This document shows, piece by piece, positions 8,567 to 26,224 of a DNA stretch of 64,000 nucleotides. The notes beneath the pieces were generated by a model. That model made no database searches. It was not told the DNA's origin and was given only the letters and a program-made list of their open reading frames with translations. A program made the translations under genes and the position numbers. The first letter of the stretch is position 1, and every line of letters begins with the position of its first letter. This DNA is from Candidatus Villigracilaceae bacterium (GTDB lineage Bacteria > Chloroflexota > Anaerolineae > Anaerolineales > Villigracilaceae), in NCBI GenBank assembly GCA_026645935.1, contig JAPKMP010000001.1:186001-250000 (forward strand). The letters run 5' to 3'.

Positions 8567-8591
8567 TAAATCTTCAATCACAAATCGATTG

Positions 8592-8664
8592 TGGGCCCGG
8601 TAGGATTCGAACCTACGACCAAGCGATTATGAGTCGCCTGCGCTAACCGCTGCGCCACGAGCCC
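8592..8664 (-). tRNA. tRNA with CAT anticodon, probably tRNA-Ile2 (lysidine type)
   Basis: A 73-base cloverleaf with a 7-bp acceptor stem (one G-T pair), the D-stem GCGC/GCGC, the anticodon loop CTCATAA and the T-loop TTCGAAT. The CCA end is not encoded. The anticodon arm GGCGACTCATAATCGCT is the same as I recall for enterobacterial tRNA-Ile2, whose C34 is changed to lysidine by TilS. It differs from elongator tRNA-Met, though automatic tools may name it tRNA-Met. Confidence 0.88.
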
Positions 8665-8673
8665 GTGATTAAA

Positions 8674-8730
8674 GTGTCAGGTGTCAAGTGCGGAGTGTCA
8701 CGTGACACCTGGAACCTGACACTTGACACC
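8674..8730. repeat. TGTCAGGTGTCAAG-type inverted repeat between tRNA genes
   Basis: Short alternating copies of GTGTCA, AGGTGTCAAGTG and their complements (CACTTGACACC, ACGTGACACCT) form several possible hairpins in the spacer between two tRNA genes. A related array lies at 45582-45622. Confidence 0.6.
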
Positions 8731-8739
8731 GAACGTCAG

Positions 8740-8811
8740 AGCGGGAGATGGGATTCGAACCCACGAATATCAGCTTGGAAGGCTGATGCCTTACCACTTG
8801 GCGACTCCCGC
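8740..8811 (-). tRNA. tRNA-Gly(TCC)
   Basis: A 72-base cloverleaf: acceptor GCGGGAG/CTCCCGC, anticodon loop CTTCCAA with anticodon TCC, and T-loop TTCGAAT. It reads GGA and GGG glycine codons. CCA is not encoded. The preceding tRNA with a CAT anticodon lies 76 bases away on the same strand, so the two may be processed from one transcript. Confidence 0.93.
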
Positions 8812-8902
8812 AAAGCGACGTGATTTTACATGCAGGGGGGCGGAGCGTCAAGCACCTTGACCGTGAAAGGGCAGTAAAGTACAATCAGCGCGCTTAATCA
8901 AT

Positions 8903-8976
8903 GCCCTCGTAGCTCAGTGGATTAGAGCGCTTGCTTGCGGAGCAATAGGTCGGCGGTTCGAGTCCGTCCGAGGGCG
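8903..8976 (+). tRNA. tRNA-Arg(GCG)
   Basis: A 74-base cloverleaf: acceptor GCCCTCG/CGAGGGC, D-arm GCTC...GAGC, and T-loop TTCGAGT. The seven-base loop TTGCGGA gives the anticodon GCG. A follows GG in the D-loop (A20, an arginine identity base) and the discriminator is G. The outermost anticodon-stem pair is a C-T mismatch. CCA is not encoded. Most bacteria read CGY with an ACG anticodon edited to inosine, so GCG is unusual. Confidence 0.85.
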
Positions 8977-8980
8977 CTCC

Positions 8981-12913: not shown

Positions 12914-14161
12914 ATGTCGTCATACAATGAGGTCCTGGCGGTCATCCTAGGGGGCGGACGCGGGGCGCGGCTCTACCCGCTGACGCAAATGCGATCCAAA
13001 CCGGCTGTGCCGATCGCCGGGAAATACCGCCTGATCGACATCCCCATCAGCAATTGTATTAACTCGGAAATTTTTCGTATAGCGATCCTGACCCAGTTCA
13101 ACTCGGTATCGCTTCATCGGCACATCACGCGCACGTACAATTTTGATTCCTTTCACCAGGGCTGGGTGCAGATCTGGGCGGCTGAGCAGACAATGGAAAG
13201 TGCAGACTGGTACCAGGGCACAGCGGATGCCGTCCGCAAGCAGATGTTGGAGATACAATCCACAGGCGCGAAATATGTGTTGATCCTGGCTGGAGATCAT
13301 CTGTATCGAATGGATTACAAAGCCATGGCGGAATTTCATTGGGAAAACGGAGCGGATATCACTGTTGCCGTCCAGCCGGTTGCAAAGGAAGAGGTGAGCC
13401 GCTTTGGGGTTTTGAAGCGCGAGTCCGATGCCCGAATCAGCAATTTTGTGGAAAAGCCAAAAGACCCGGCGGTCCAGAACCAATTCATCAGCCGGGATGA
13501 CCCGGTGCGGCCTTTCCTTGGCTCGATGGGAATTTACATGTTCAATACGAAGATCCTGCTGGATTTCCTGCGGAATTTCCCCGATTACGACGATTTCGGC
13601 GGAGACATCATTCCGCACGCCATCAAGACCAATAAGGTGTTCGGCTTCGATTTCGATGGGTATTGGCAGGATATCGGAACGATCCGCTCGTTCTACGAGA
13701 CAAACCTGATGCTGACCACACCGAACTCGCCGTTCGATTTCTACGATGCAAAATTGCCGATCTATACCGACACGCGTTATCTGCCTGCTTCGATCGTGGA
13801 AGACTGCCTGATGAAGGAAGTGCTGATCGCAGAGGGGAGCCGGGTGCTGCGGTCTGAGATAACCCATTCCATCATCGGTATCCGCAGCCAGATCGCCGCG
13901 GGCTGTGTCATCAAGGACAGTATTGTGATGGGTTCTGATTATTATGAGCGCGACTGGGGCGGGCTGCCCATCGGTATCGGCGCGAACTGTCACATCGAAG
14001 GCGCGATCTTGGATAAGAACGCCCGCATCGGCGAAGGTGTGGTCATTCGGCCGTTTCCGCGCAACGCGGATGTCGACGACGAAAATTGGTTTGTGCGCGA
14101 TGGCATTGTGATCATCCCAAAGGATGTCGAGATTCAACCCGGCACGGTGATCGCGCCGTAA
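12914..14161 (+). CDS. glgC: Glucose-1-phosphate adenylyltransferase
   Basis: ADP-glucose pyrophosphorylase, first committed step of bacterial glycogen synthesis, 415 residues. The nucleotide-binding start AVILGGGRGARLYPLT, the KPAVPIAGKYRLID activator/catalytic region, LAGDHLYRMDY and FVEKPKDP are all present, and the C-terminal third is a left-handed beta-helix. CAGGAGGATTT precedes the ATG. No other glycogen gene is visible apart from a phosphohexomutase at 23.4-24.8 kb that could supply glucose-1-phosphate. Confidence 0.95.
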   Translation: MSSYNEVLAVILGGGRGARLYPLTQMRSKPAVPIAGKYRLIDIPISNCINSEIFRIAILTQFNSVSLHRHITRTYNFDSFHQGWVQIWAAEQTMESADWYQGTADAVRKQMLEIQSTGAKYVLILAGDHLYRMDYKAMAEFHWENGADITVAVQPVAKEEVSRFGVLKRESDARISNFVEKPKDPAVQNQFISRDDPVRPFLGSMGIYMFNTKILLDFLRNFPDYDDFGGDIIPHAIKTNKVFGFDFDGYWQDIGTIRSFYETNLMLTTPNSPFDFYDAKLPIYTDTRYLPASIVEDCLMKEVLIAEGSRVLRSEITHSIIGIRSQIAAGCVIKDSIVMGSDYYERDWGGLPIGIGANCHIEGAILDKNARIGEGVVIRPFPRNADVDDENWFVRDGIVIIPKDVEIQPGTVIAP

Positions 14162-14297
14162 AAGCCTTCTTTGCTTGGAGTAGCGGAGATGACCTTGTCA
14201 TAACACTCGCGAAATTAAATGCGTTACAAGCGGCGGGCTATCACCATGTTGCAACTTTTCCAAGCGCGCAAGCAGAGGGTCAAGATTAAAATTATGC

Positions 14298-14303
14298 TAT
14301 ACT
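14298..14303 (+). promoter_or_regulatory. Extended -10 promoter at the head of the 14.3-22.6 kb operon
   Basis: TGC-TATACT, an extended -10, ends 10 bases before the ATG at 14314. The region between has no Shine-Dalgarno, so the transcript is nearly leaderless. The 152-base gap after glgC holds a 43-codon open stretch without a start codon and nothing else I can support. Confidence 0.5.
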
Positions 14304-14313
14304 CCAATTAACT

Positions 14314-14556
14314 ATGAATTCACGAGAATTCTGGCAACGCTGGGCTGAATCCCTGCGCCGTTTTCAACTTCAAGATCTGGTCGCCTCGTTCCTTGAAGCA
14401 GGAAGTCCGTTCGCCCTGCTTGGGGCGCAGGCGATTTATTTTGGAGGCGCATTCATCAAGAATGACCACCTCGACGCGCTTGCTTCGATGCTCGAGGATG
14501 AATCCGAATTGCGCGCATTTACAGCCTATTTGAACGGAGGGGAAACAGTTTTATGA
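14314..14556 (+). CDS. Unknown 80-residue protein, first gene of membrane operon
   Basis: Small, probably soluble and helical protein of unknown family (begins MNSREFWQRWAESLRRF). It has amphipathic helices and one apolar stretch (SPFALLGAQAIYFGGAF) too short and mixed to be a sure membrane helix. It ends by overlapping the next gene by 4 bases (ATGA), so it is coupled to it. I do not recognise it. Its place at the head of the operon suggests a peripheral partner of the membrane proteins encoded downstream. Confidence 0.7.
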   Translation: MNSREFWQRWAESLRRFQLQDLVASFLEAGSPFALLGAQAIYFGGAFIKNDHLDALASMLEDESELRAFTAYLNGGETVL

Positions 14557-15284
14557 TTCCCCTTTCCGCGCTCATCCTTGCCATATTCCTGCTGGGCGTC
14601 ATCACAATATGGAAGCGCCGCTCGCCCGGAACACTGAGGCAGATCCCCGCATTTACCAGGCTCGCCCGCACCATCGGGTTAAGCATCGAAGACGGGAAAC
14701 GACTGCATATCGCGCTGGGACACGGTGGATTGTTCGACGCGCGCGGCGGGTCGGCATTGGCGGGATTGGCCTTGCTGCGAAAGATCGCCGAACGGACCTC
14801 CGTGAGCGACATGCCTTCTGTTGCAACTGCCGGGGATCCGACGCTGGGTCTATTGACACAAGATACCCTGCAAGCCGGTTACCAGGCGGCGGACGTTGGT
14901 GAGGCTTACGTCCATACGATGGGGCGCATTACAGGGTTGACCCCATTCAGTTATTCCGCTGGGACGATGCACATTCCACAGAATGAAAACGTTTCGACGA
15001 ATATCCTGCTCGGTCATCTCGGTCCTGAAACTGCCCTGTTGGTCGAAGCGTCTGACCGCGCTGGCACCACGTTGATCGGCGCGACGGATGATCTTGCCGG
15101 GCAATCGATTTTATTTGCCGGTTCACAGGAACCATTGATCGGTGAGGAACTGTTTGCCGCGGGCGCCTACCTCAATGCCGAGCCGGCGCATCTGGCCAGT
15201 TTAACCGTGCAGGACCTGTTCCGGTGGTTGATCATCCTTGCCCTGCTGGCTGGATCGGCGGCAAAATTCCTGGGGGTTTTCTAA
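14553..15284 (+). CDS. DUF6754-like membrane-anchored protein
   Basis: Protein of 243 residues with a hydrophobic N-terminal helix (LSALILAIFLLGVITIW) and a C-terminal helix (LFRWLIILALLAGSAAKFLG), and a soluble domain of about 190 residues between. That domain has glycine-rich turns (ALGHGGLFDARGGSALAGLA) and recurring HLGPETALLVEASDRAG-like segments. It resembles proteins annotated DUF6754, seen in Chloroflexota and archaea, but I give that label with moderate confidence. It overlaps both neighbours by a few bases, so it is tightly coupled. Confidence 0.75.
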   Translation: MIPLSALILAIFLLGVITIWKRRSPGTLRQIPAFTRLARTIGLSIEDGKRLHIALGHGGLFDARGGSALAGLALLRKIAERTSVSDMPSVATAGDPTLGLLTQDTLQAGYQAADVGEAYVHTMGRITGLTPFSYSAGTMHIPQNENVSTNILLGHLGPETALLVEASDRAGTTLIGATDDLAGQSILFAGSQEPLIGEELFAAGAYLNAEPAHLASLTVQDLFRWLIILALLAGSAAKFLGVF

Positions 15285-15898
15285 TGCGAGTTCTGACCGC
15301 CATCATTGCCATCGCAGTCGGTATCCTCATACTGCTTGGATACTTCTTCACGCAAGCGGAGGTCGTACAGGCTGTCCTGCTGGACTGGGCAATCATCCTT
15401 GCCGGCACGGCGACCCTGATCGGCATTTTCAACCTGATCACCGTCCACGCCGATAAAATCCGACGGCGCGAAAAGGATGGTGTCTATTCCGCAATACTTA
15501 TCATTGGCTTGGTTGGCGCGTTCTTCTTTGGAATCGTCCTCAAACCGCAGAGTTCTTTCCTGCAATCTGTCCTGTTGGAGGGGATCATCATCCCTGTGGA
15601 AGCCTCACTGATGGGATTGCTGGCGGTATCCCTGCTCTATGCAGCAGTTCGTTTAATGCGCCGCCGGGCAGACATGATGAGCATTATTTTCATCCTGACG
15701 GCTGCATTGATCTTTCTCGGTTCGGTCACCCTGCCGTTCGGTGAAATGCCGCTGATCGGCACCCTGATCCGCCCGTGGGTTTCGCAGATATGGGCGGTGG
15801 GCGGTGCGCGGGGAATATTGATCGGAGTTGGACTTGGCGCGCTCATGACCGGCTTGCGGGTGTTATTCGGTATCGACCGGCCGTATGGGGGCAAATGA
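15284..15898 (+). CDS. Six-TM membrane protein of unknown function
   Basis: About 204 residues and roughly six hydrophobic helices with short loops; the charged loop HADKIRRREKDG after the second helix should face the cytosol. The ATG overlaps the stop codon of the previous gene by one base, which fixes the start and marks coupled translation. There is no recognisable transporter or enzyme motif. It is probably a structural membrane subunit acting with its neighbours. Confidence 0.75.
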   Translation: MRVLTAIIAIAVGILILLGYFFTQAEVVQAVLLDWAIILAGTATLIGIFNLITVHADKIRRREKDGVYSAILIIGLVGAFFFGIVLKPQSSFLQSVLLEGIIIPVEASLMGLLAVSLLYAAVRLMRRRADMMSIIFILTAALIFLGSVTLPFGEMPLIGTLIRPWVSQIWAVGGARGILIGVGLGALMTGLRVLFGIDRPYGGK

Positions 15899-15899
15899 C

Positions 15900-18425
15900 A
15901 TGATGGACATGGTGAAATGCCCCCTATGCGGGACGATGAACCCGCCCACACAGAAAATCTGCCAGGGATGCCAGACCCCGTTATCTGGGGAATCCTTTCA
16001 ACCCGGTCAGGCTCCGGTAAAGAAGGATACTGGAGAGCTGGAACCCATCCTGCCGCAATGGTTGAGGGATGCGCGCGAAACCGCAAAAGAATCGGGATTG
16101 GGTGAACGTTACCAGCAGTCAGAACCAAACCAATCCGCCGCTTCAAGCTCGGACCTGTTGGCGGGTCTGCAATCCCAGGCAAAATCTGACGACGAAGAGG
16201 AAGTGCCGGACTGGCTTGCCAACATCACAGGCGCACCAAAACAAAAACAAAAACCTGAAGAGCCTGAGGAATTCACCGGCGTCCGCTGGGTGGAGACGGG
16301 ACACAGGGACGATTTTGAACAGGAAGATGAAGTCCCCAGTTGGCTGGCCGGGATGCAGACCCCTTCAACCGGTGCAGATGAAAAAGACGAACTCACTGAA
16401 TGGTTCCAGGAATCAGGCGCGGGCAAGGATTCGTTCAAAAGCCCCTTTCAACAGATCGGCAACTCAATTCCTTCGTCTTCGCAACCCAAACCCGACGATA
16501 CAACGCCGGAGTGGTTGAAGCAAATGGCTGCTGAAGCCGGTGAAAAGAAAACCGAGTCCGAATCCATCGACTGGTTCAGCCAAATCCCGGCAGAATCTCC
16601 CGCTGGTTCAAAAGACCAATCTCAGGAACCCAGCGTCCCTGCTTTAGGCTCTGATTCTTCGGATTGGTTGAGTAAATTGCAAGCCGACGTAAATACAGAC
16701 GCACAAGAGGAAGCGCCGGAGTCCTCCGAGTTTCCGGTTGATACACCGGATTGGTTGAGGAATCTGGGCGGAGTCTCCAGCGGCGAACCGTCTCCATTTA
16801 TTGAATCAGCACCGGATGAGCCTGAGCCGCTCATCCCGGAACCGGGCATTCCCTCATGGCTGGCTTCGGAGGAAAGCAAAAAGTCGGACTCCACACCGGT
16901 GTGGCTGCAGGAAAAAGGGGGAACCGAATCAGACGTGCCTGCCTGGGTGTCTCAAGATTCTGCTTCTACTGCAGATTCACAGGCCCAACAGGACAATTTG
17001 GAATCGCCCGTTGAAGATATCTTCAGCGACCTTCCGGAATGGTTGAAATCCGCTGCGCCTGAATCTTCGATCTTCGATGAACCTGCCAAGCCCGTTGAGA
17101 CTCCAAGTGTTGGTGCGGCTGGACCGACTGCCCAACCAGATTTCGAAACGACGCCTGCCTTCACAGATGGGGGAATACCCAGCGACGCTGACGGACTCTT
17201 TACCGAAATGCCGGACTGGCTTTCCAACGCGCTGGAGACCCCGGTTACACCGGGCGCATCCGAACCAGGCACTGGCTCCGATGCGCTTGCATCGAACGTC
17301 CTGCCTTCATGGGTTGAAGCCATGCGTCCGATGGATCAGGCCATCCCCGGCTCTTCTTCCTTGATGAGCGATCAAACCTTCGAACAGCGCGGCGCTCTTG
17401 CAGGGTTACAGGGAGTCCTCCCCGCAGGTTTGGGCTTTGCACCCACCAGCAAACCCAAAACCTATTCGAACAAACTCAGTGTCAACGATGAACAACTGAA
17501 ACATGCTGAGATCTTCGAACAGGTCCTTGCAGCAGAGACCGCTCCCGAAAGGCTTGTCACGGAAAGGCAGATCGGTGCATCACGCGGATTGCGCTGGGCG
17601 ATTTCTGCAATTCTTATCGGCGTGATCTTGACCGTAACGTTTCTGGGAACCCGGTTCCTTTCCGTACCCATCGGCGTTCCCAACGAACTGCGCTTTACCA
17701 TGGCGGTTGCGCAAGCAATCCCTGAGAACGCGCCTGTCCTGGTCGTGATGGATTATGACGCCTCCCGCGCCGGTGAAATGGAAGCCGCCTCTGCTCCCTT
17801 GTTCGATAATTTGATGCTTCTTAAGCATCCGCGGCTGACTTTTATCGCCAGCAATGAACCCGGAGCGATCCTTGCCGAGCGCTTCATTGCCGGACCATTG
17901 GCGGTTCACAACTATCAAAACGGAGTCACTTACCTGAACCTCGGCTACCTTGCCGGAGCACAGGTGGGAATTCGCGCCTTTGCGGAAAATCCGATGTTCG
18001 CCGCGCCAATGGAGATCACAGGCCAGCCTGCATGGGCTTTGCCGCCGCTTCAGGATGTGAAGTCGCTTGACCAATTCGCACTCATTGTCCTTATCACCGA
18101 TGATGCCGATGCAGCCCGGTCCTGGATCGAACAGACAGAGACCGCGCGCGGCGTCGTTCCGATCGTTGCCATATCGAGCGCCCAGGCCGCGCCCATGATC
18201 CAGCCGTATTACGACTCGGGGCAGGTGGCGGGCATAATATCCGGATTATACGGAGGCGCGATCGTCGAACGCCAATACAACAATGGTCGCCCCGGCCTGG
18301 CGCGCAATTATTGGGATGCCTACAGCCTAGGTATGTTGCTTGCGTTGGTCTTCACACTTGGCGGAGGGTTCGTCCAATTGGGACTGGGTTTGCGCGATCG
18401 TACCGCATCCAGGGGTGAAAAATAA
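15900..18425 (+). CDS. Zinc-ribbon, P-x-W-L-repeat, membrane-spanning protein
   Basis: Large protein of unknown function, about 841 residues. Residues 5-22 form a zinc ribbon (CPLCGTMNPPTQKICQGC). Residues about 45-480 are acidic, low-complexity and probably disordered, with about 14 copies of a short motif of the form P-[DSEQ]-W-[LVF] (LPQWLRDA, VPDWLANI, VPSWLAGM, TPEWLKQM, TPDWLRNL, LPEWLKSA, MPDWLSNA). A membrane helix follows at about 562-585, then a soluble domain of about 220 residues and a final helix near the C-terminus. The start could also be 15885. The ribbon and repeats should be cytosolic. Confidence 0.8.
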   Translation: MMDMVKCPLCGTMNPPTQKICQGCQTPLSGESFQPGQAPVKKDTGELEPILPQWLRDARETAKESGLGERYQQSEPNQSAASSSDLLAGLQSQAKSDDEEEVPDWLANITGAPKQKQKPEEPEEFTGVRWVETGHRDDFEQEDEVPSWLAGMQTPSTGADEKDELTEWFQESGAGKDSFKSPFQQIGNSIPSSSQPKPDDTTPEWLKQMAAEAGEKKTESESIDWFSQIPAESPAGSKDQSQEPSVPALGSDSSDWLSKLQADVNTDAQEEAPESSEFPVDTPDWLRNLGGVSSGEPSPFIESAPDEPEPLIPEPGIPSWLASEESKKSDSTPVWLQEKGGTESDVPAWVSQDSASTADSQAQQDNLESPVEDIFSDLPEWLKSAAPESSIFDEPAKPVETPSVGAAGPTAQPDFETTPAFTDGGIPSDADGLFTEMPDWLSNALETPVTPGASEPGTGSDALASNVLPSWVEAMRPMDQAIPGSSSLMSDQTFEQRGALAGLQGVLPAGLGFAPTSKPKTYSNKLSVNDEQLKHAEIFEQVLAAETAPERLVTERQIGASRGLRWAISAILIGVILTVTFLGTRFLSVPIGVPNELRFTMAVAQAIPENAPVLVVMDYDASRAGEMEAASAPLFDNLMLLKHPRLTFIASNEPGAILAERFIAGPLAVHNYQNGVTYLNLGYLAGAQVGIRAFAENPMFAAPMEITGQPAWALPPLQDVKSLDQFALIVLITDDADAARSWIEQTETARGVVPIVAISSAQAAPMIQPYYDSGQVAGIISGLYGGAIVERQYNNGRPGLARNYWDAYSLGMLLALVFTLGGGFVQLGLGLRDRTASRGEK

Positions 18426-18426
18426 C

Positions 18427-19131
18427 ATGGCATTCTCCCTTGATCTCGTCACAGGCGCGCTCGGTTTCCTCTTCACGGTTTTGATCCTGAGTTATTTGAT
18501 CGGCGATAACCCCCTGTTCAAGATTGCTGTCTATCTTTTTGTGGGTGTCGCTTCCGGCTATACAGCCGCTGTGGTGTTCTGGCAGGTCCTTTACCCGAAA
18601 CTTTTTTTGCCAACCGTACTCATTTTGCAGACCGGTGACTTTATGCGCGGCGTTCTGCTAGTGGTGCCCTGGCTGGGTTTCGCCTTTATCCTGATGAAAA
18701 TCTCTCCGCGGCTGGCGGGAATCGCCCGCATTACTATGGCATTTCTCGTAGGCGCCGGTGCGGCTGTGACGATCGCAGGCGCATTGACCGGAACGATCAT
18801 TCCCCAAATGATCGCCACGATCGACTTTTTCGATCCAAGCCTCGCGGCAGCAAGGAATATCAGCGCATTCGAAGTGTTGGGGAATGGAACGATTCTGTTG
18901 GTGGGTGTTGTCACGACTCTGGCTTATTTCCATTTCGGTGCGCGACAAAAACCGGATGGCTCACCGAAACGTTTTGCCCCGATCGACCTGCTTTCATGGA
19001 TCGGACGCATCTTCATTGGAATCACCCTTGGCGTTATCTTCGCAGGCGTGTATGCCGCAGCCCTCTCTGCCATGATCGAACGAATAAACTTTCTCATTAA
19101 CTTCCTCACTTCACTGTTGGGGATGTCCTAG
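18427..19131 (+). CDS. Membrane protein of unknown function
   Basis: About 234 residues with six or more hydrophobic segments. They include LVTGALGFLFTVLILSYLIG at the N-terminus, a helix with GVASGYTAAVVFW, and a C-terminal pair around GVIFAGVYAAALSAMIE. No family motif is recognised. It starts one base after the stop of the zinc-ribbon gene and is followed after 6 bases by the ASKHA gene, so it belongs to the same operon. It is probably another integral subunit. Confidence 0.75.
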   Translation: MAFSLDLVTGALGFLFTVLILSYLIGDNPLFKIAVYLFVGVASGYTAAVVFWQVLYPKLFLPTVLILQTGDFMRGVLLVVPWLGFAFILMKISPRLAGIARITMAFLVGAGAAVTIAGALTGTIIPQMIATIDFFDPSLAAARNISAFEVLGNGTILLVGVVTTLAYFHFGARQKPDGSPKRFAPIDLLSWIGRIFIGITLGVIFAGVYAAALSAMIERINFLINFLTSLLGMS

Positions 19132-19137
19132 GGTCCC

Positions 19138-20898
19138 ATGCCTACTTCCATTGTTACAGGTAACTCCCTGCTTGCCATCGACGTCGGAGCCGCAAACACT
19201 CGCGCGGTTCTGTTCGATGTGATCGAAGGCGAATACCGATTTGTGGCATCTGGAGTTGCACCCAGCACCGCTGAATCACCGGTGAGGGACGTATCGGAGG
19301 GCGCACGCCATGCCATTCGATCATTGCAGGGCATTCTAAAGAAGAACCTGCTTGATATGTCACGCAGTCTTATCCTGCCCAGCCAGCCCGACGGCTCGGG
19401 CGTGGATTCGCTCGTCGTCACCGTTTCCGCAGGCTCAGCCGTGCGGACCCTTGTAGTTGGGCTTCTGAAAGACGTCTCGCTTGACAGCGCCCGGCGTCTG
19501 ACTGAATCCACCTACGCCCGCGTGGTGGATTTCATCAGCCTTGGTGATCATCGCAAGCCCGAACAGCAGATCGACAGCATTCTACGCACCCGCCCGGATA
19601 TGGTTGTCATCGCCGGGGGTACGGATGGGGGCGCTTCCCGCTCCGTTCAAAAATTGCTCGATCCGATCGGCCTCGCCAGTTACTTTTTGCCCGAGGAAAA
19701 GCGCCCTGCCGTTCTATACGCGGGCAACGGCAAACTTGCGGAAGAGGTGAAGTCGCTGGTCGGTTCCCTTTCATCCTATCTGCATTTCAGCTCGAATATC
19801 CGCCCCTCGCTCGATACCGAAGACATCCCGCCAGCCGAGAGTGAACTGGCACAGATGTTCATCAAAATCCGCAAGAAGCAACTCAAGGGGTTGGACATAC
19901 TCGATAATTGGGCGGGCGGTCACACCCTGCCGACGGCATATGCAACAGGGCGCATGGTACGCTTTCTATCCAATGTTTATGGCTCGCAAAAAGGGCTGCT
20001 AAGCGTGGACCTTGGCGCTTCTTCCACAGTGATCGCTGCGGGCTTCAAGAACAAATCTGTTTTGAAGGTGTATCCCCAGTTTGGCCAGGGTGAAAACCTG
20101 CCTGGCTTGCTTAATCACACTTCCATCGAAGATATCTTGCGCTGGTCAACTCTCGACATCCCGCCCGCAACTCTTGTGGATTATCTGCACCAAAAAGCGC
20201 TTTATCCTGCCACGATCCCCGCCACCAGGGAAGATCTTGTACTCGCGCAGTCGGTGGCGAAACAGGCATTATTCCTTGCCATGCAGTCTGCGCGTCGCGA
20301 TTTTCCTAGAGACGCCGCCATCATCAAGCCGAATCTCGCCCCGCTCTTCGATCCGATCATCGCCGGGGGTGCCACCTTGAGCGACGCTTCGCGGCCGGGT
20401 CAGAGCCTGCTCCTGCTATTGGACGCGGTCCAACCCGTCGGCATTGCGACTGTCATCCTAGATCAGAACAACCTCATGCCGCTCCTGGGCGCGGCGGGCT
20501 CTGTCAATAATCTTCTTCCGGTCCAGGTCCTTGAATCCGGGGCATTTCTGAGTATAGGTACGATCATCTGCCCGGTGGTTTCAGCAAAATATGGCGCTTC
20601 CATCTTGAAAGCCAGAATCACGTATGAAAACGGCGCTGAAGCGGGCGTGGATCTGAAGTATGGTTTTCTGGAGATTCTTCCCTTGAAAAGCGGCGAGACA
20701 GGCCGACTTACCATCCAGGTCGGGCGCGGAGTGGATATTGGCTTCGGCTTTGGGCGAGGCGTAAAAGGTCTTCCGATCAGCGGCGGTGCGTTGGGTGTCG
20801 TCTTCGATGGCAGGGGTCGTCCCTTGGACATGCCGTCTGACCCTGTCAGGAGGCGCGAACTCATCAAAAAATGGAACTGGTCTTTGGGAGGCGGATAA
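19138..20898 (+). CDS. GlmL/MutL-family ASKHA protein
   Basis: Protein of 586 residues resembling the MutL/GlmL family that accompanies glutamate mutase (not the mismatch-repair MutL). The actin-fold phosphate motif LLAIDVGAANTRAVLFD is at the N-terminus. A second glycine-rich motif MVVIAGGTDGGASRSV follows near residue 160, then LLSVDLGASSTVIAAG near 285 and IIAGGATLSDASRPGQ near 405. It should bind and perhaps hydrolyse ATP. No B12-dependent mutase subunit is encoded nearby; its neighbours are membrane proteins. A different, membrane-linked role is therefore likely. Confidence 0.75.
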   Translation: MPTSIVTGNSLLAIDVGAANTRAVLFDVIEGEYRFVASGVAPSTAESPVRDVSEGARHAIRSLQGILKKNLLDMSRSLILPSQPDGSGVDSLVVTVSAGSAVRTLVVGLLKDVSLDSARRLTESTYARVVDFISLGDHRKPEQQIDSILRTRPDMVVIAGGTDGGASRSVQKLLDPIGLASYFLPEEKRPAVLYAGNGKLAEEVKSLVGSLSSYLHFSSNIRPSLDTEDIPPAESELAQMFIKIRKKQLKGLDILDNWAGGHTLPTAYATGRMVRFLSNVYGSQKGLLSVDLGASSTVIAAGFKNKSVLKVYPQFGQGENLPGLLNHTSIEDILRWSTLDIPPATLVDYLHQKALYPATIPATREDLVLAQSVAKQALFLAMQSARRDFPRDAAIIKPNLAPLFDPIIAGGATLSDASRPGQSLLLLLDAVQPVGIATVILDQNNLMPLLGAAGSVNNLLPVQVLESGAFLSIGTIICPVVSAKYGASILKARITYENGAEAGVDLKYGFLEILPLKSGETGRLTIQVGRGVDIGFGFGRGVKGLPISGGALGVVFDGRGRPLDMPSDPVRRRELIKKWNWSLGGG

Positions 20899-20901
20899 AG
20901 A

Positions 20902-21957
20902 ATGATTGCACCTGTTCATCATGTCACTGGTCTGACCACAATCGTCCGCGAACGGCTGTTGCCCGTTTCAGGGAACGTCATTGCCAGAATCCAGCAGAAA
21001 GTCACGACTGGCGAAGTGGTTGCCGAGACTCGCTGGGCGCGCGAACATGTCCTGTTGGATGTGGCGCGTTCGTTGGGAGTTTCCCCCGCCGCGGCAGACC
21101 GCCTGATCAAATGCCAGGTGGACGATCAACTTCCCGCTTCGGCAGAGATTGCCGTGGGAAAAGGATTGTTCCCACGTTCCGTGCGCGCGCCGCGCGAAGG
21201 GCGCGTGGTGGCGGTGGGGGGCGGGCAGGTCCTCCTGGAGATCGGCGAATCGAAATTTGAACTACGCGCGGGCATGCCCGGTACAGTGGTTCAGGTGATT
21301 CCAAACCGGGGGGTTGTGATTCAAAGTTCCGGGGGGCTTGTTCAGGGGGTTTGGGGCAATGGGCGGATCGATTCAGGTTTGATGGTCAACTTGATGCAAA
21401 GCCCCGATTCGGTATTGACTCCAGACAGAGCGGACGTCAGCCTGCGCGGTTCGATTCTTCTTGGCGGTATGATCCAACATGCCGAATCCTTGCAGGCCTT
21501 GGCGGAACTACCCGCACGCGGGCTGATCGCTTCCAGCATTGTACCCCCCTTGTTGGCGAAGGCACGCGAGATGCGTTACCCCATTGTCGTAACGGATGGT
21601 TTCGGATCCGTGCCGATGAATTCGGCGGCGTATAAGCTGCTCAGCACAAGCGCCAAACGCGAAGTTGCCCTTAATGCGGAATCCACCGACCGCTATTCCG
21701 GTTCACGCCCTGAAATCATCATTCCTTTGCCAACAACCTCCGAGCCGCCCGTTCCCAGCGAAACCGAAAGCTTTGCACCCGGATCCCAGGTGCGCATGCG
21801 CTGCGCTCCCGCAACGGGAAGAATCGGTTCCATCCTCTCGATCAAACCCGGCTTGACAACCCTTCCCAGCGGGCTGCGCGCCCAGGCCGCGGAAGTCAAG
21901 CTTGACAACAACGAAATCGTGATCGTCCCGCTCGTAAACATGGAAGTTGTGGGATAA
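20902..21957 (+). CDS. Unknown 351-residue operon partner with barrel-sandwich-like domain
   Basis: Soluble protein of unknown family. The N-terminal 80 residues are helical. The segment VRAPREGRVVAVGGGQVLLE near residue 95 has the Ala-Pro-x-x-Gly-x-Val pattern of barrel-sandwich (lipoyl-like or RnfC-like) folds, followed by GTVVQVIPNRGVVIQSSGG. A Rossmann-like middle part (LLGGMIQHAESLQALAEL, PIVVTDGFGS) and a C-terminal beta-rich tail follow. No catalytic motif is seen. It begins 3 bases after the ASKHA gene, and the two probably act together. Confidence 0.7.
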   Translation: MIAPVHHVTGLTTIVRERLLPVSGNVIARIQQKVTTGEVVAETRWAREHVLLDVARSLGVSPAAADRLIKCQVDDQLPASAEIAVGKGLFPRSVRAPREGRVVAVGGGQVLLEIGESKFELRAGMPGTVVQVIPNRGVVIQSSGGLVQGVWGNGRIDSGLMVNLMQSPDSVLTPDRADVSLRGSILLGGMIQHAESLQALAELPARGLIASSIVPPLLAKAREMRYPIVVTDGFGSVPMNSAAYKLLSTSAKREVALNAESTDRYSGSRPEIIIPLPTTSEPPVPSETESFAPGSQVRMRCAPATGRIGSILSIKPGLTTLPSGLRAQAAEVKLDNNEIVIVPLVNMEVVG

Positions 21958-21997
21958 TTGCGCAAAGATGTTCAAATAAGGTTCAGGAGAGTGCTTC

Positions 21998-22564
21998 ATG
22001 TCCTTTGAAGAATCCAATTTCGACGATAACCCCGAGGACGGTCAACTGCCGGAAGAATCCAATAATAACCGTACCTTCCTGATCGCAGCTGCCATTCTGG
22101 GCGGGATCATCCTGATCTCGTTCGCGTGCATAGTCGGAGTTTATCTCTTTACGCAGAACTCCGCTGCGCAGGCAGAACAGCAGGCAGCAGCATTGACTCA
22201 AACTGAGGCGGTCAATGCCAATTTCATCAACCAGGCACTGACCTCCACGCATGAGGCATCCCTGATTCCCACCGCCACCCTGCCGCCAACCGCGACATTG
22301 GTCGTGAACGTACCCACTGCGACGAATACACCCGATCCGAATGCAGTTGCCCAGGCGGGCACTCCCGGAGCTGCAACTGCGACCGTCGGAGCTGCGTTGA
22401 CCCAGGCTGCCATCGCACAGCTGACCATCGTCCCAACGACCACTGCTTTGCCCAAAACGGGTTTCGTGGATGACGTGGGCATTCCTGGGCTTGTTGTCAT
22501 GTCGCTTGCTTTCATTATTGTGATCCTTGTTGCGCGCAGACTCCGCTTCGCCCCCAGCCGATAA
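21998..22564 (+). CDS. Thr-rich surface protein with LPKTG-type C-terminal signal
   Basis: Protein of 188 residues with an acidic N-terminus, a hydrophobic helix at about 26-51, and an Ala/Thr-rich stretch of about 100 residues. The C-terminus has LPKTG (about 151-155), a hydrophobic helix (GLVVMSLAFIIVILV) and the basic tail ARRLRFAPSR. That order, LPxTG then helix then positive tail, is the classical sortase sorting signal. The first helix is unlike a cleavable signal peptide because 25 residues precede it. TTCAGGAGA precedes the ATG by 9 bases. It is the last gene before a strong terminator. Confidence 0.75.
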   Translation: MSFEESNFDDNPEDGQLPEESNNNRTFLIAAAILGGIILISFACIVGVYLFTQNSAAQAEQQAAALTQTEAVNANFINQALTSTHEASLIPTATLPPTATLVVNVPTATNTPDPNAVAQAGTPGAATATVGAALTQAAIAQLTIVPTTTALPKTGFVDDVGIPGLVVMSLAFIIVILVARRLRFAPSR

Positions 22565-22585: not shown

Positions 22586-22617
22586 AACTCACCCCGATGC
22601 CGGGGTGAGTTTTTATT
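22586..22617. terminator. Terminator at the end of the membrane operon
   Basis: Perfect stem AACTCACCCCG/CGGGGTGAGTT with a short ATGC loop, followed by TTTTATTT. It closes the nine-gene operon and may also serve the convergent editing-protein gene. Confidence 0.85.
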
Positions 22618-24910: not shown

Positions 24911-26224
24911 TTATGGATTAGGGGTGACTGTCGGTGTGGACGATGGGCTGAAATTCGGGGCGGGCGTGGCATATGCGATCACCGACTCCAATAGCCAGCC
25001 TTCTATGCGCTGCCCATTGATGAGGGCGTATACCTTCACCCAGGTGCTTCCGTTCACGATCTGGAATTCCGAATAGGTTTCGACGATGGTGCCGTTGAGC
25101 AGGGTCATGACGTAGTTTCCGCCCGGCGCATCGCGCAGGTTCGCGCCTCCGCCTTCACTAGCGGCAACCTTTCCATATGTCGGGGTGGGCTGGATGGTGA
25201 GTGTGATGGTCGGTGTTTCCGTAGGTGGAAGCGTGATCTCCAGCGTGAGAGGAACGGGACTGGGAGTGACATCCTCAGAAGTGATTTCATTCGGTGTTGG
25301 TGTGCGGGTGGCGGGACCTCTTGTAGGCGTTTGATTCGGTTTGAGCGTGAGAGTCAGGCTTGGGATCAAGGGGGGAGCCGACGAAATCTGATTCGTGGGA
25401 GTGGATTGAGAAATCGCCGGTTCTGCCCTGAACGGGGTGCCGGATGCAGCGAGGACGGCAAGGGTTCCGGCAAAGAAAACGAGCATGAGTCCGCTCAAGA
25501 TAAATCCGCCTACCGAGGGGCGTAATCGAAGCACGAAGAGAGTGATGAGACCAAGAATGCCTGTGAGCGCAAAATGTGCGGCAAAGACCAGCAGCCCTTG
25601 CATCCATACATCGGGCAAGCCGGAACCGATGCCGAATGCCGCAGCGCTGACGGGCAGGTAGAACGCATAGGCGACGATCACACTTGGCAGAAAAGGACGG
25701 TCTTCGGAACGCGCAAATGAAATGACGAGAGTGATTGCCCCGAGAGCAAAGACAACCAGTTCGGGGATCCACAGCCGGGAGTGAAGAAAAACGTTATCGA
25801 AAGTCTGCGGCATAAAGGGAAGGGCGGCAAAGCCGGTGAGCAGGCCCCCAATAAAAACGAATAGAATGCTGATGAATAACGCCATCAGTGTTTCGAACAT
25901 GAATCGCAGCGAACCGGTGAGGAGAGCGAGTAAAAATCCCACCCAGGGCGTCATGAGCGGCGCAACAAGGATCCCGAACAACAAAACGGCCTGCGAATCG
26001 AGCAGGTAGCCAAGCCCCAGGATCGCCCCGCATATCAATGAAAATATGAACAACTCCCAGGACGGGTATGCCCGTCGAGCCAGCGATGCGATCAATTCCG
26101 CCTGGCCTTCGGCATCCGTCGGTATATGCGATCTTCGTGTGGCGCGCCTTCTGCGCGGCGGCTGCGGAATCGTTGATTCTTCTTTCGGAGGCAGGGGCAG
26201 AACCGGCTCGTCGTTCATAGACAT
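24911..26224 (-). CDS. DUF389 membrane protein fused to an SH3-like domain
   Basis: Protein of 437 residues. A basic N-terminus (PPRRRRATRRSHIP) is followed by about seven membrane helices with the DUF389-type repeat LLFGILVAPLMTPWVGFLLA. A proline/threonine-rich linker of about 70 residues leads to a bacterial SH3 domain (GGANLRDAPGGNYVMTLLNG through NGQRIEGWLLESVIAYA). It ends in a second short proline/threonine-rich tail. SH3 domains of this type often bind cell-wall material, so the C-terminus should be outside. The first ATG directly follows a TATAAT box. The fusion is unusual for DUF389 proteins. Confidence 0.75.
   Translation of the reverse strand: MSMNDEPVLPLPPKEESTIPQPPRRRRATRRSHIPTDAEGQAELIASLARRAYPSWELFIFSLICGAILGLGYLLDSQAVLLFGILVAPLMTPWVGFLLALLTGSLRFMFETLMALFISILFVFIGGLLTGFAALPFMPQTFDNVFLHSRLWIPELVVFALGAITLVISFARSEDRPFLPSVIVAYAFYLPVSAAAFGIGSGLPDVWMQGLLVFAAHFALTGILGLITLFVLRLRPSVGGFILSGLMLVFFAGTLAVLAASGTPFRAEPAISQSTPTNQISSAPPLIPSLTLTLKPNQTPTRGPATRTPTPNEITSEDVTPSPVPLTLEITLPPTETPTITLTIQPTPTYGKVAASEGGGANLRDAPGGNYVMTLLNGTIVETYSEFQIVNGSTWVKVYALINGQRIEGWLLESVIAYATPAPNFSPSSTPTVTPNP

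Follow-up and report, generated by a model that had tools for sequence, protein, structure and literature searches.

An eight-gene operon of a Villigracilaceae bacterium, best read as the Chloroflexota form of a two-module membrane system

We analysed a run of eight genes, here called g1 to g8, that lies on the + strand at positions 14314-22564 of a 64,000-nucleotide stretch (the window) of contig JAPKMP010000001.1 from a Candidatus Villigracilaceae bacterium (assembly GCA_026645935.1). On the sequence evidence, this operon is best read as the Chloroflexota form of an undescribed two-module membrane system. The membrane module, which comprises g2, g3, a domain of g4 that we term E, and g5, has the same gene order in several phyla and reaches many copies in some genomes, and a soluble pair, the ASKHA protein g6 with its partner g7, often adjoins it. 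Solute uptake seems the most likely function, a proposal that we make tentatively from copy number and gene context. The eight genes are as follows.

14314..14556, + strand: g1, protein of 80 residues, with homologues that precede g2 in Chloroflexota and in other groups often precede g6
14553..15284, + strand: g2, DUF6754 protein with a membrane segment, a Rossmann-like domain (probably cytoplasmic) and a second membrane segment, from a PF20539 match and a homologue model
15284..15898, + strand: g3, polytopic membrane protein with six hydrophobic segments, from hydropathy
15885..18425, + strand: g4, zinc ribbon and 11 PxW[LVIM] motifs, followed in the same protein by E between two membrane segments
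18427..19131, + strand: g5, polytopic membrane protein with six hydrophobic segments, from hydropathy
19138..20898, + strand: g6, ASKHA protein with a MutL-like core and a C-terminal part bearing a D-x-R-G-R-P motif
20902..21957, + strand: g7, partner of g6 with stretches resembling a barrel-sandwich hybrid (BSH) and a KOW domain, from weak profile matches
21998..22564, + strand: g8, two membrane segments, a Thr/Pro-rich linker and LPKTG; lineage-limited accessory

An initial annotation of this DNA had described nine same-strand genes with overlaps or tiny gaps. We found eight, as did that annotation's own gene list, and the tight packing is borne out by intergenic gaps of -4, -1, -14, 1, 6, 3 and 40 bases.

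Conservation of gene order

DUF6754, the family of g2, was found in 67 of the 301 Chloroflexota genomes drawn, as a single copy in all 67 listed, and PF13941, the family of g6, in 158 of the 301; the window's own assembly has one match to each. Among the 67 DUF6754 genomes, PF13941 was on the same contig at a distance of 2.8-7.3 kb in 53, on another contig in 12 and not listed in two. We fetched 60 Chloroflexota regions, most of which were chosen for carrying DUF6754 and PF13941 on a shared contig and 21 of which were chosen as PF13941 loci from genomes without DUF6754. It can be seen that the order g2-g3-g4-g5-g6 was kept in all 39 of the fetched loci that hold g2. Within the fetched stretch 19 of these have all eight genes, six are without g8, three without g1 and g8, and 11 without g7 and g8.

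The core of the operon extends well outside this phylum. A scan with seven DUF6754 proteins gave 468 relatives, and the best 80, which were kept, came from records titled Chloroflexota, Bacillota, Armatimonadetes, WOR-3, TA06, Proteobacteria, Deltaproteobacteria, Planctomycetota, Latescibacterota, Zipacnadia, Muiribacterium, Bathyarchaeota, Thermococci and rumen bacteria. Fifty of these best 80 loci, with 58 copies of g2, are titled other than Chloroflexota. The strict order g2-g3-E-g5 was present in 34 of the 43 non-Chloroflexota copies that had at least 2.6 kb of downstream sequence. Eight of the nine exceptions also hold g3, E and g5 downstream but failed the test because E is repeated or an overlong reading frame was called; the ninth (L185) has g3 only. 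The same strict order was seen for 12 of 12 copies in archaeal regions, for six of nine in Planctomycetota, where the other three were without g3, E or g5 nearby, and for all 35 testable copies (of 42) in Bacillota, where regions were picked by E matches and the presence of E is thus not an independent finding. In L280, L282 and L283, which are from Planctomycetota, g7 is followed by DUF6754, with no g3, E or g5 nearby, and in the rumen bacterial loci L194 and L196-L199 E is tripled between g3 and g5, with another E after g5.

The soluble pair follows the module in many of these organisms. Both g6 and g7 were present in 18 of the 50 non-Chloroflexota loci, commonly in the order 1-6-7-2-3-E-5, and g7 was found in 25 of 26 tested genomes that hold DUF6754 loci, two of the 26 being Chloroflexota and the single miss being G312. 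Phylum samples drawn around individual records, each of which includes genomes used as entry points, held DUF6754 in 129 of 151 genomes (around an Armatimonadetes record), 49 of 199 (Planctomycetota), 28 of 348 (Bacillota) and 4 of 200 (Bathyarchaeota), and the family was absent from all 14 control genomes. The initial annotation had named loss of gene order in related genomes as the observation that would count against its operon; the order was kept in every one of the 39 Chloroflexota loci and the core recurs across phyla and in archaea. The operon is real, with one gene fewer than had been stated and with a core that reaches beyond the Anaerolineae.

Proteins of the membrane module

The protein encoded by g2 is a member of PF20539 (DUF6754; E-value 7.9e-28, 97.7 bits against the Pfam cut-off of 27). 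Simple hydropathy gives two hydrophobic segments for each of g2, g4 and g8 and six for each of g3 and g5, in keeping with the anchored DUF6754-like protein and the two polytopic membrane proteins described previously. Domain E, the predicted extracytoplasmic part of g4, lies between membrane segments at about residues 569-587 and 812-830 (the whole being about residues 569-830), and counts of the charges that flank the membrane segments suggest that E is outside and the g2 domain inside.

Structures were predicted for homologues from the Bacillota locus L141 in place of the proteins of the window itself. The confident models of E (predicted local distance difference test, pLDDT, 95.4; predicted template-modelling score, pTM, 0.89) and of g2 (pLDDT 89.8, pTM 0.80) share a layout of membrane segment, Rossmann-like domain and membrane segment. 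Structural look-up returned 1kjn_A as the best match for E (Z 10.4, root mean square deviation 3.3, 139 aligned) and the Sir2 structure 1s7g_A as the best for g2 (Z 11.8, root mean square deviation 3.5, 146 aligned), and the best Foldseek E-values were 4.6e-4 and 1.7e-3, respectively, with template-modelling scores under 0.4. We rejected a family assignment for either on these grounds, as the matches are to generic Rossmann folds only. In profile-profile comparisons g2 and E appeared unrelated (probability 4.7), as did g3 and g5 (probability 0.7). Profile searches of the PDB returned nothing for g2 or g5; a match of g3 to TRPM8 (E-value 0.7) was taken as chance, and one of E to glutamate racemase (E-value 0.0015) as a generic fold match. 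At L177:7628-10783 DUF6754 is preceded in the same protein by some 780 residues, HEAT repeats among them, and long N-terminal extensions on DUF6754 occur in other phyla too.

Two separable parts are joined in g4

The N-terminus of g4 has a zinc-ribbon-like CxxC...CxxC stretch, which scored below the Pfam cut-off, and the protein contains 11 P-x-W-[LVIM] motifs, whereas 2000 shuffles had 0.23 on average and never more than 3. The earlier description of a zinc-ribbon protein with many such motifs captured this part of g4; the conserved domain E in the other part had been overlooked. A match to the g4 profile was present in 14 of the 21 Chloroflexota loci without g2, and in most of these 14 it spans the zinc ribbon and the PxWL repeats without E (the ribbon only in L104). 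Conversely, E is present without the repeats in L078, L081 and L082, which belong to one family. As the repeats occur without E and E without the repeats, we conclude that the PxWL stretch travels with g6-g7 and E with the membrane genes, the two being fused in the window's lineage. From this pairing we infer that the repeats may dock g6-g7 to the membrane module.

Among the 21 g2-less Chloroflexota loci (L092-L113) the zinc-ribbon/PxWL protein is free-standing and stands in front of g6-g7, in some cases with a C-terminal tail that looks amphipathic. At L117:6327-8836 g4 is split across two overlapping reading frames, a frameshift or an assembly error.

The soluble pair g6-g7

The initial annotation had related g6 to GlmL/MutL, and of these two names the second stands: g6 is a MutL/ASKHA protein (PF13941; E-value 2.7e-58, 198.3 bits against the Pfam cut-off of 27) but reaches only 93 bits against the 475 of the GlmL equivalog model NF040745, and it lies below both the equivalog and the subfamily cut-off for GlmL. 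Nucleotide-site residues are conserved among 118 aligned g6 proteins (D15 in 99, G17 in 116, T21 in 113, D291 in 101, G293 in 115 and G411 in 117); we take these to be the phosphate-1, phosphate-2 and adenosine-site motifs. Outside the PF13941 match, the C-terminal part carries the motif D-x-R-G-R-P at residues 557-562, with D557 and R559 each present in 116 of the 118.

The barrel-sandwich-like stretch that had been proposed for g7 finds faint echoes in a PDB profile of NqrA (E-value 0.022) and, for the homologue at L141, in RnfC_N (E-value 0.014, 15.9 bits, below the cut-off of 25.6). Other PDB profiles matched by g7 were lysozyme (1.3e-5) and the SPT5 KOW domain (1.8e-5), with no stretch passing by itself in either case. 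In Bacillota (L232-L248) several extra g6-g7 pairs per genome occur without the g2-g3-E-g5 cassette.

The initial annotation had also suggested an envelope-spanning assembly from the combination of products. A membrane assembly that includes a nucleotide-binding ASKHA protein is a sound reading because the gene order is conserved. A single obligatory unit is not supported, since the g6-g7 pair is also found where g2-g3-E-g5 is absent, and the membrane cassette can increase in copy number while g6-g7 does not.

Copy number and gene neighbours

Three archaeal genomes have seven, six and seven copies of E and one g7 each. A fourth has four E and four g7 matches, one of the latter with stop codons, and E lies within 1.2 kb of all 24 DUF6754 copies in the four genomes. 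The 3.8 Mb Bacillota genome that holds L144 (G302) gave 29 rows for E, made up of 27 near-complete and two partial copies, and nine rows for g7, which represent fewer genes since several match in two pieces. The copy numbers of E in the three archaeal genomes and in G302 follow the pattern of a paralogous specificity unit.

We then compared the families encoded beside the Bacillota cassettes with those found elsewhere in the same genomes. Genes were called with a crude open reading frame caller; neighbours were genes within two places of the cassettes in 40 regions, and the 104 background genes were 110 sampled genes minus six dropped by hand. Amidohydro_1 was matched by 10 of 95 neighbours but by no more than 1 of the 104 background genes (p 0.003 in Fisher's test), where the bound reflects its not being among families matched by two or more of the 104. 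L323 was excluded, as its contig was already present as L169. In an earlier, overlapping set, which comprised 95 of 140 listed neighbour genes (161 had passed the filter) plus two L286 genes picked by eye, 7 of 97 matched, compared with no more than 1 among the 96 (of 140) genes used as the distal control (p 0.033). The genomes G388, G459 and G483 are apparently closely related.

Weighing the possible functions

Since the multi-copy cassettes stand beside amidohydrolase genes, we favour solute handling over a structural envelope machine. In such a system g3 and g5 would form the membrane core, E would be an outward-facing Rossmann-like domain that binds the ligand, and the g2 domain would face the cytoplasm. 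The PxWL repeats would dock the g6-g7 pair, whose nucleotide cycle would drive, gate or assemble the membrane module within what may be one physical complex. The solutes taken up or handled would be small and organic, perhaps amides or peptide-like compounds in the many-copy organisms. Bacteria and Archaea might thus share a new class of solute transporter built from several subunits, with a DUF6754-g3-E-g5 cassette and a shared ASKHA-type g6-g7 pair in place of the ABC ATPase, and almost universal among genomes of the Armatimonadota type; this is a possibility that we hold with considerable doubt.

Several observations weigh against uptake as the function. Some concern the neighbours: the amidohydrolase signal stems from a small number of Bacillota genomes, in which many of the copies are related; the two neighbour tests lack independence, as they have contigs in common (for example L168/L287 and L167/L312); peptidases of the M20 and M24 families, taken alone, were each found in 3 of 95 neighbours, which is not significant (p 0.28); and amidohydrolase-type genes were neither beside the window's single copy nor, by eye, in the Chloroflexota or Planctomycetota maps. 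The membrane proteins themselves offer no transporter match, with no Pfam family at cut-off for g3 or g5 and no relevant relative of either in the PDB profile search, and the Rossmann-like folds modelled for E and g2 are generic and indicate no function. The soluble pair also leads a life of its own. It is found complete in 19 of the 21 reduced, g2-less Chloroflexota loci, and the extra Bacillota pairs adjoin, by eye, ABC/FtsX-type, MFS, aminotransferase-like and amidohydrolase-like genes. As pairs exist without the module, g6-g7 is not only a motor of it; moreover, g7 was not found within the fetched stretch in 11 of the 39 loci with g2, one of which is cut by a contig end.

The strongest competitor, which we nevertheless think unlikely, is an envelope-spanning structural or secretory assembly that the ASKHA protein organises from the inside and that surface proteins like g8 decorate. 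An operon that combines an LPxTG protein and a PxWL scaffold with polytopic subunits and an outward domain would suit such an assembly, as would the single copy, typical of a housekeeping machine, in each of the 67 Chloroflexota genomes listed, and the fusion of g2 elsewhere to large N-terminal regions such as the HEAT repeats of L177. Up to 27 near-complete E copies per genome with catabolic-type neighbours would be unusual for a structural machine, g8 is restricted to part of the Chloroflexota, and no secretion or pilus family was matched by the eight products. Multiple cassettes with catabolic genes next to them could equally belong to a sensory or regulatory complex, in which E senses a ligand outside, g2 relays the signal inward and g6-g7 pass it on. 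Rossmann-like domains are predicted for both the outer and the inner face of the membrane, and RCK/TrkA ligand-gating domains are among the structures that resemble g2 and E, at Z 9.0-10.3, scores that many unrelated Rossmann folds share. No kinase, cyclase, receiver or DNA-binding domain was found among the eight products, and two polytopic subunits exceed what a sensor usually needs; we regard this role as improbable.

A redox-driven complex of the Rnf/Nqr kind would account for the slight likeness of g7 to NqrA and of its homologue to RnfC_N (the latter below cut-off). A pattern search on homologues of g2, g3, E, g5 and g7 found the flavin mononucleotide linkage-like motif [ST]GA[ST] in none of the g2, g3 or g7 rows, in 1 of 31 for E and in 1 of 28 for g5, and CxxC in 0 of 31 for E, 0 of 28 for g3, 0 of 28 for g5, 1 of 24 for g7 and 4 of 33 for g2. 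With no Rnf/Nqr family at cut-off either, we give this reading very little credence. Even less credible is a role for g6 as GlmL-type helper to a B12-dependent mutase, with the other genes incidental: the PF13941 match is strong, but the score is far under the GlmL equivalog cut-off, methylaspartate mutase E (PF06368) has no match in the host genome (98.67% complete), and g6 has the extra C-terminal part with DxRGRP and is linked to membrane genes.

Three further identities were rejected. An ABC transporter was set aside as no ABC_tran match was obtained among the eight products, anti-phage defence as neither the eight products nor two homologues matched any PADLOC family at an E-value of 0.01, and a phage origin as there was no PHROGs match at an E-value of 0.001.

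Boundaries of the operon and the surface protein g8

Three features frame the run of genes.

12914-14161: glgC, upstream of the operon
14295..14303, + strand: possible extended -10 promoter element TGCTATACT, from a pattern search of the window
22586..22611, + strand: terminator-like hairpin of 11 pairs, then TTTATTT

The extended -10 promoter that the initial annotation placed at the head of the operon does exist as an element; the window has two occurrences of the pattern where 0.36 would be expected, and two were reached in 5 of 100 shuffles. As no -35 is listed with it and it would leave almost no leader before g1, its role as the operon promoter is only plausible. A terminator-like hairpin does stand at the end, where a single strong terminator had been claimed. 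It has the longest stem among the 14 terminator candidates in the window, a number that is itself not above chance (14 against 12.0). Directly upstream, glgC is likewise found in L062, L063, L114 and L115, from genomes of the same genus as the window, and three tRNA genes (Met, Gly and Arg) lie at window positions 8591-8977.

The protein encoded by g8 ends in LPKTG followed by a membrane segment, and the host genome has four sortase matches (PF04203), in line with the surface protein described previously. Its score with the LPXTG model TIGR01167 is 12 against a cut-off of 15.9, and an integral place for the protein in the system is not supported, as it is present in 19 of the 39 Chloroflexota loci with g2. 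A bare LPxTG was seen in 16 of 22 listed g8 matches (two of the 22 being weak and probably spurious), and g8 was sought outside the Chloroflexota without being found. We conclude that g8 is a lineage-limited accessory, confined to part of the Chloroflexota. Two opposite-strand genes downstream of the operon, at window 24911-26224 (- strand) and at L115:12923-13999 (- strand), show weak similarity to the g8 profile (E-values of about 5e-4 and 2e-4), which probably arises from the Thr/Pro-rich linker.

Relation to known systems and significance

The Pfam entry for DUF6754 gives no function, and the conserved set of partners is what the present analysis adds to it. With the GlmL/MutL proteins (PF13941, NF040745, TIGR01319) g6 shares the ASKHA core and the conserved nucleotide-binding motifs, and differs in its additional C-terminal part, in its membrane gene partners and in the lack of a glutamate mutase E match in the genome. 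Importers of the ECF type and TonB-ExbBD have several components, of which the one that energises or couples transport is shared. The three archaeal genomes with many membrane cassettes and one soluble pair may be seen as analogous; in contrast to these importers, the eight products have no ABC ATPase, ECF or Ton family, and an ASKHA protein would replace the ABC fold. FtsA and PilM are actin-fold proteins of cell division and pili, and g6 resembles them in being an ASKHA protein encoded alongside membrane subunits, whereas by family it matches MutL, no FtsA or PilM model being reported for it. The weak BSH-like stretch of g7 recalls the BSH proteins NqrA and RnfC; g7 differs in its KOW-like C-terminus and in having partners that are essentially without flavin-linkage and CxxC patterns.

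Among 5.39 million open-licence papers we found none on DUF6754/PF20539, and other searches of that literature on the system gave nothing relevant among the entries listed; a description may exist under another name or in a subscription journal. To our knowledge no known system has these parts, most of which are without a family at cut-off.

If this reading is correct, a widespread and conserved membrane system with some seven parts has so far escaped description, and the absence of DUF6754 from the 14 control genomes may explain why it was missed. An ASKHA protein would then work with a membrane complex in a manner unrecorded in the literature searched, and a testable uptake or envelope function would become available for poorly understood, mostly uncultured organisms.

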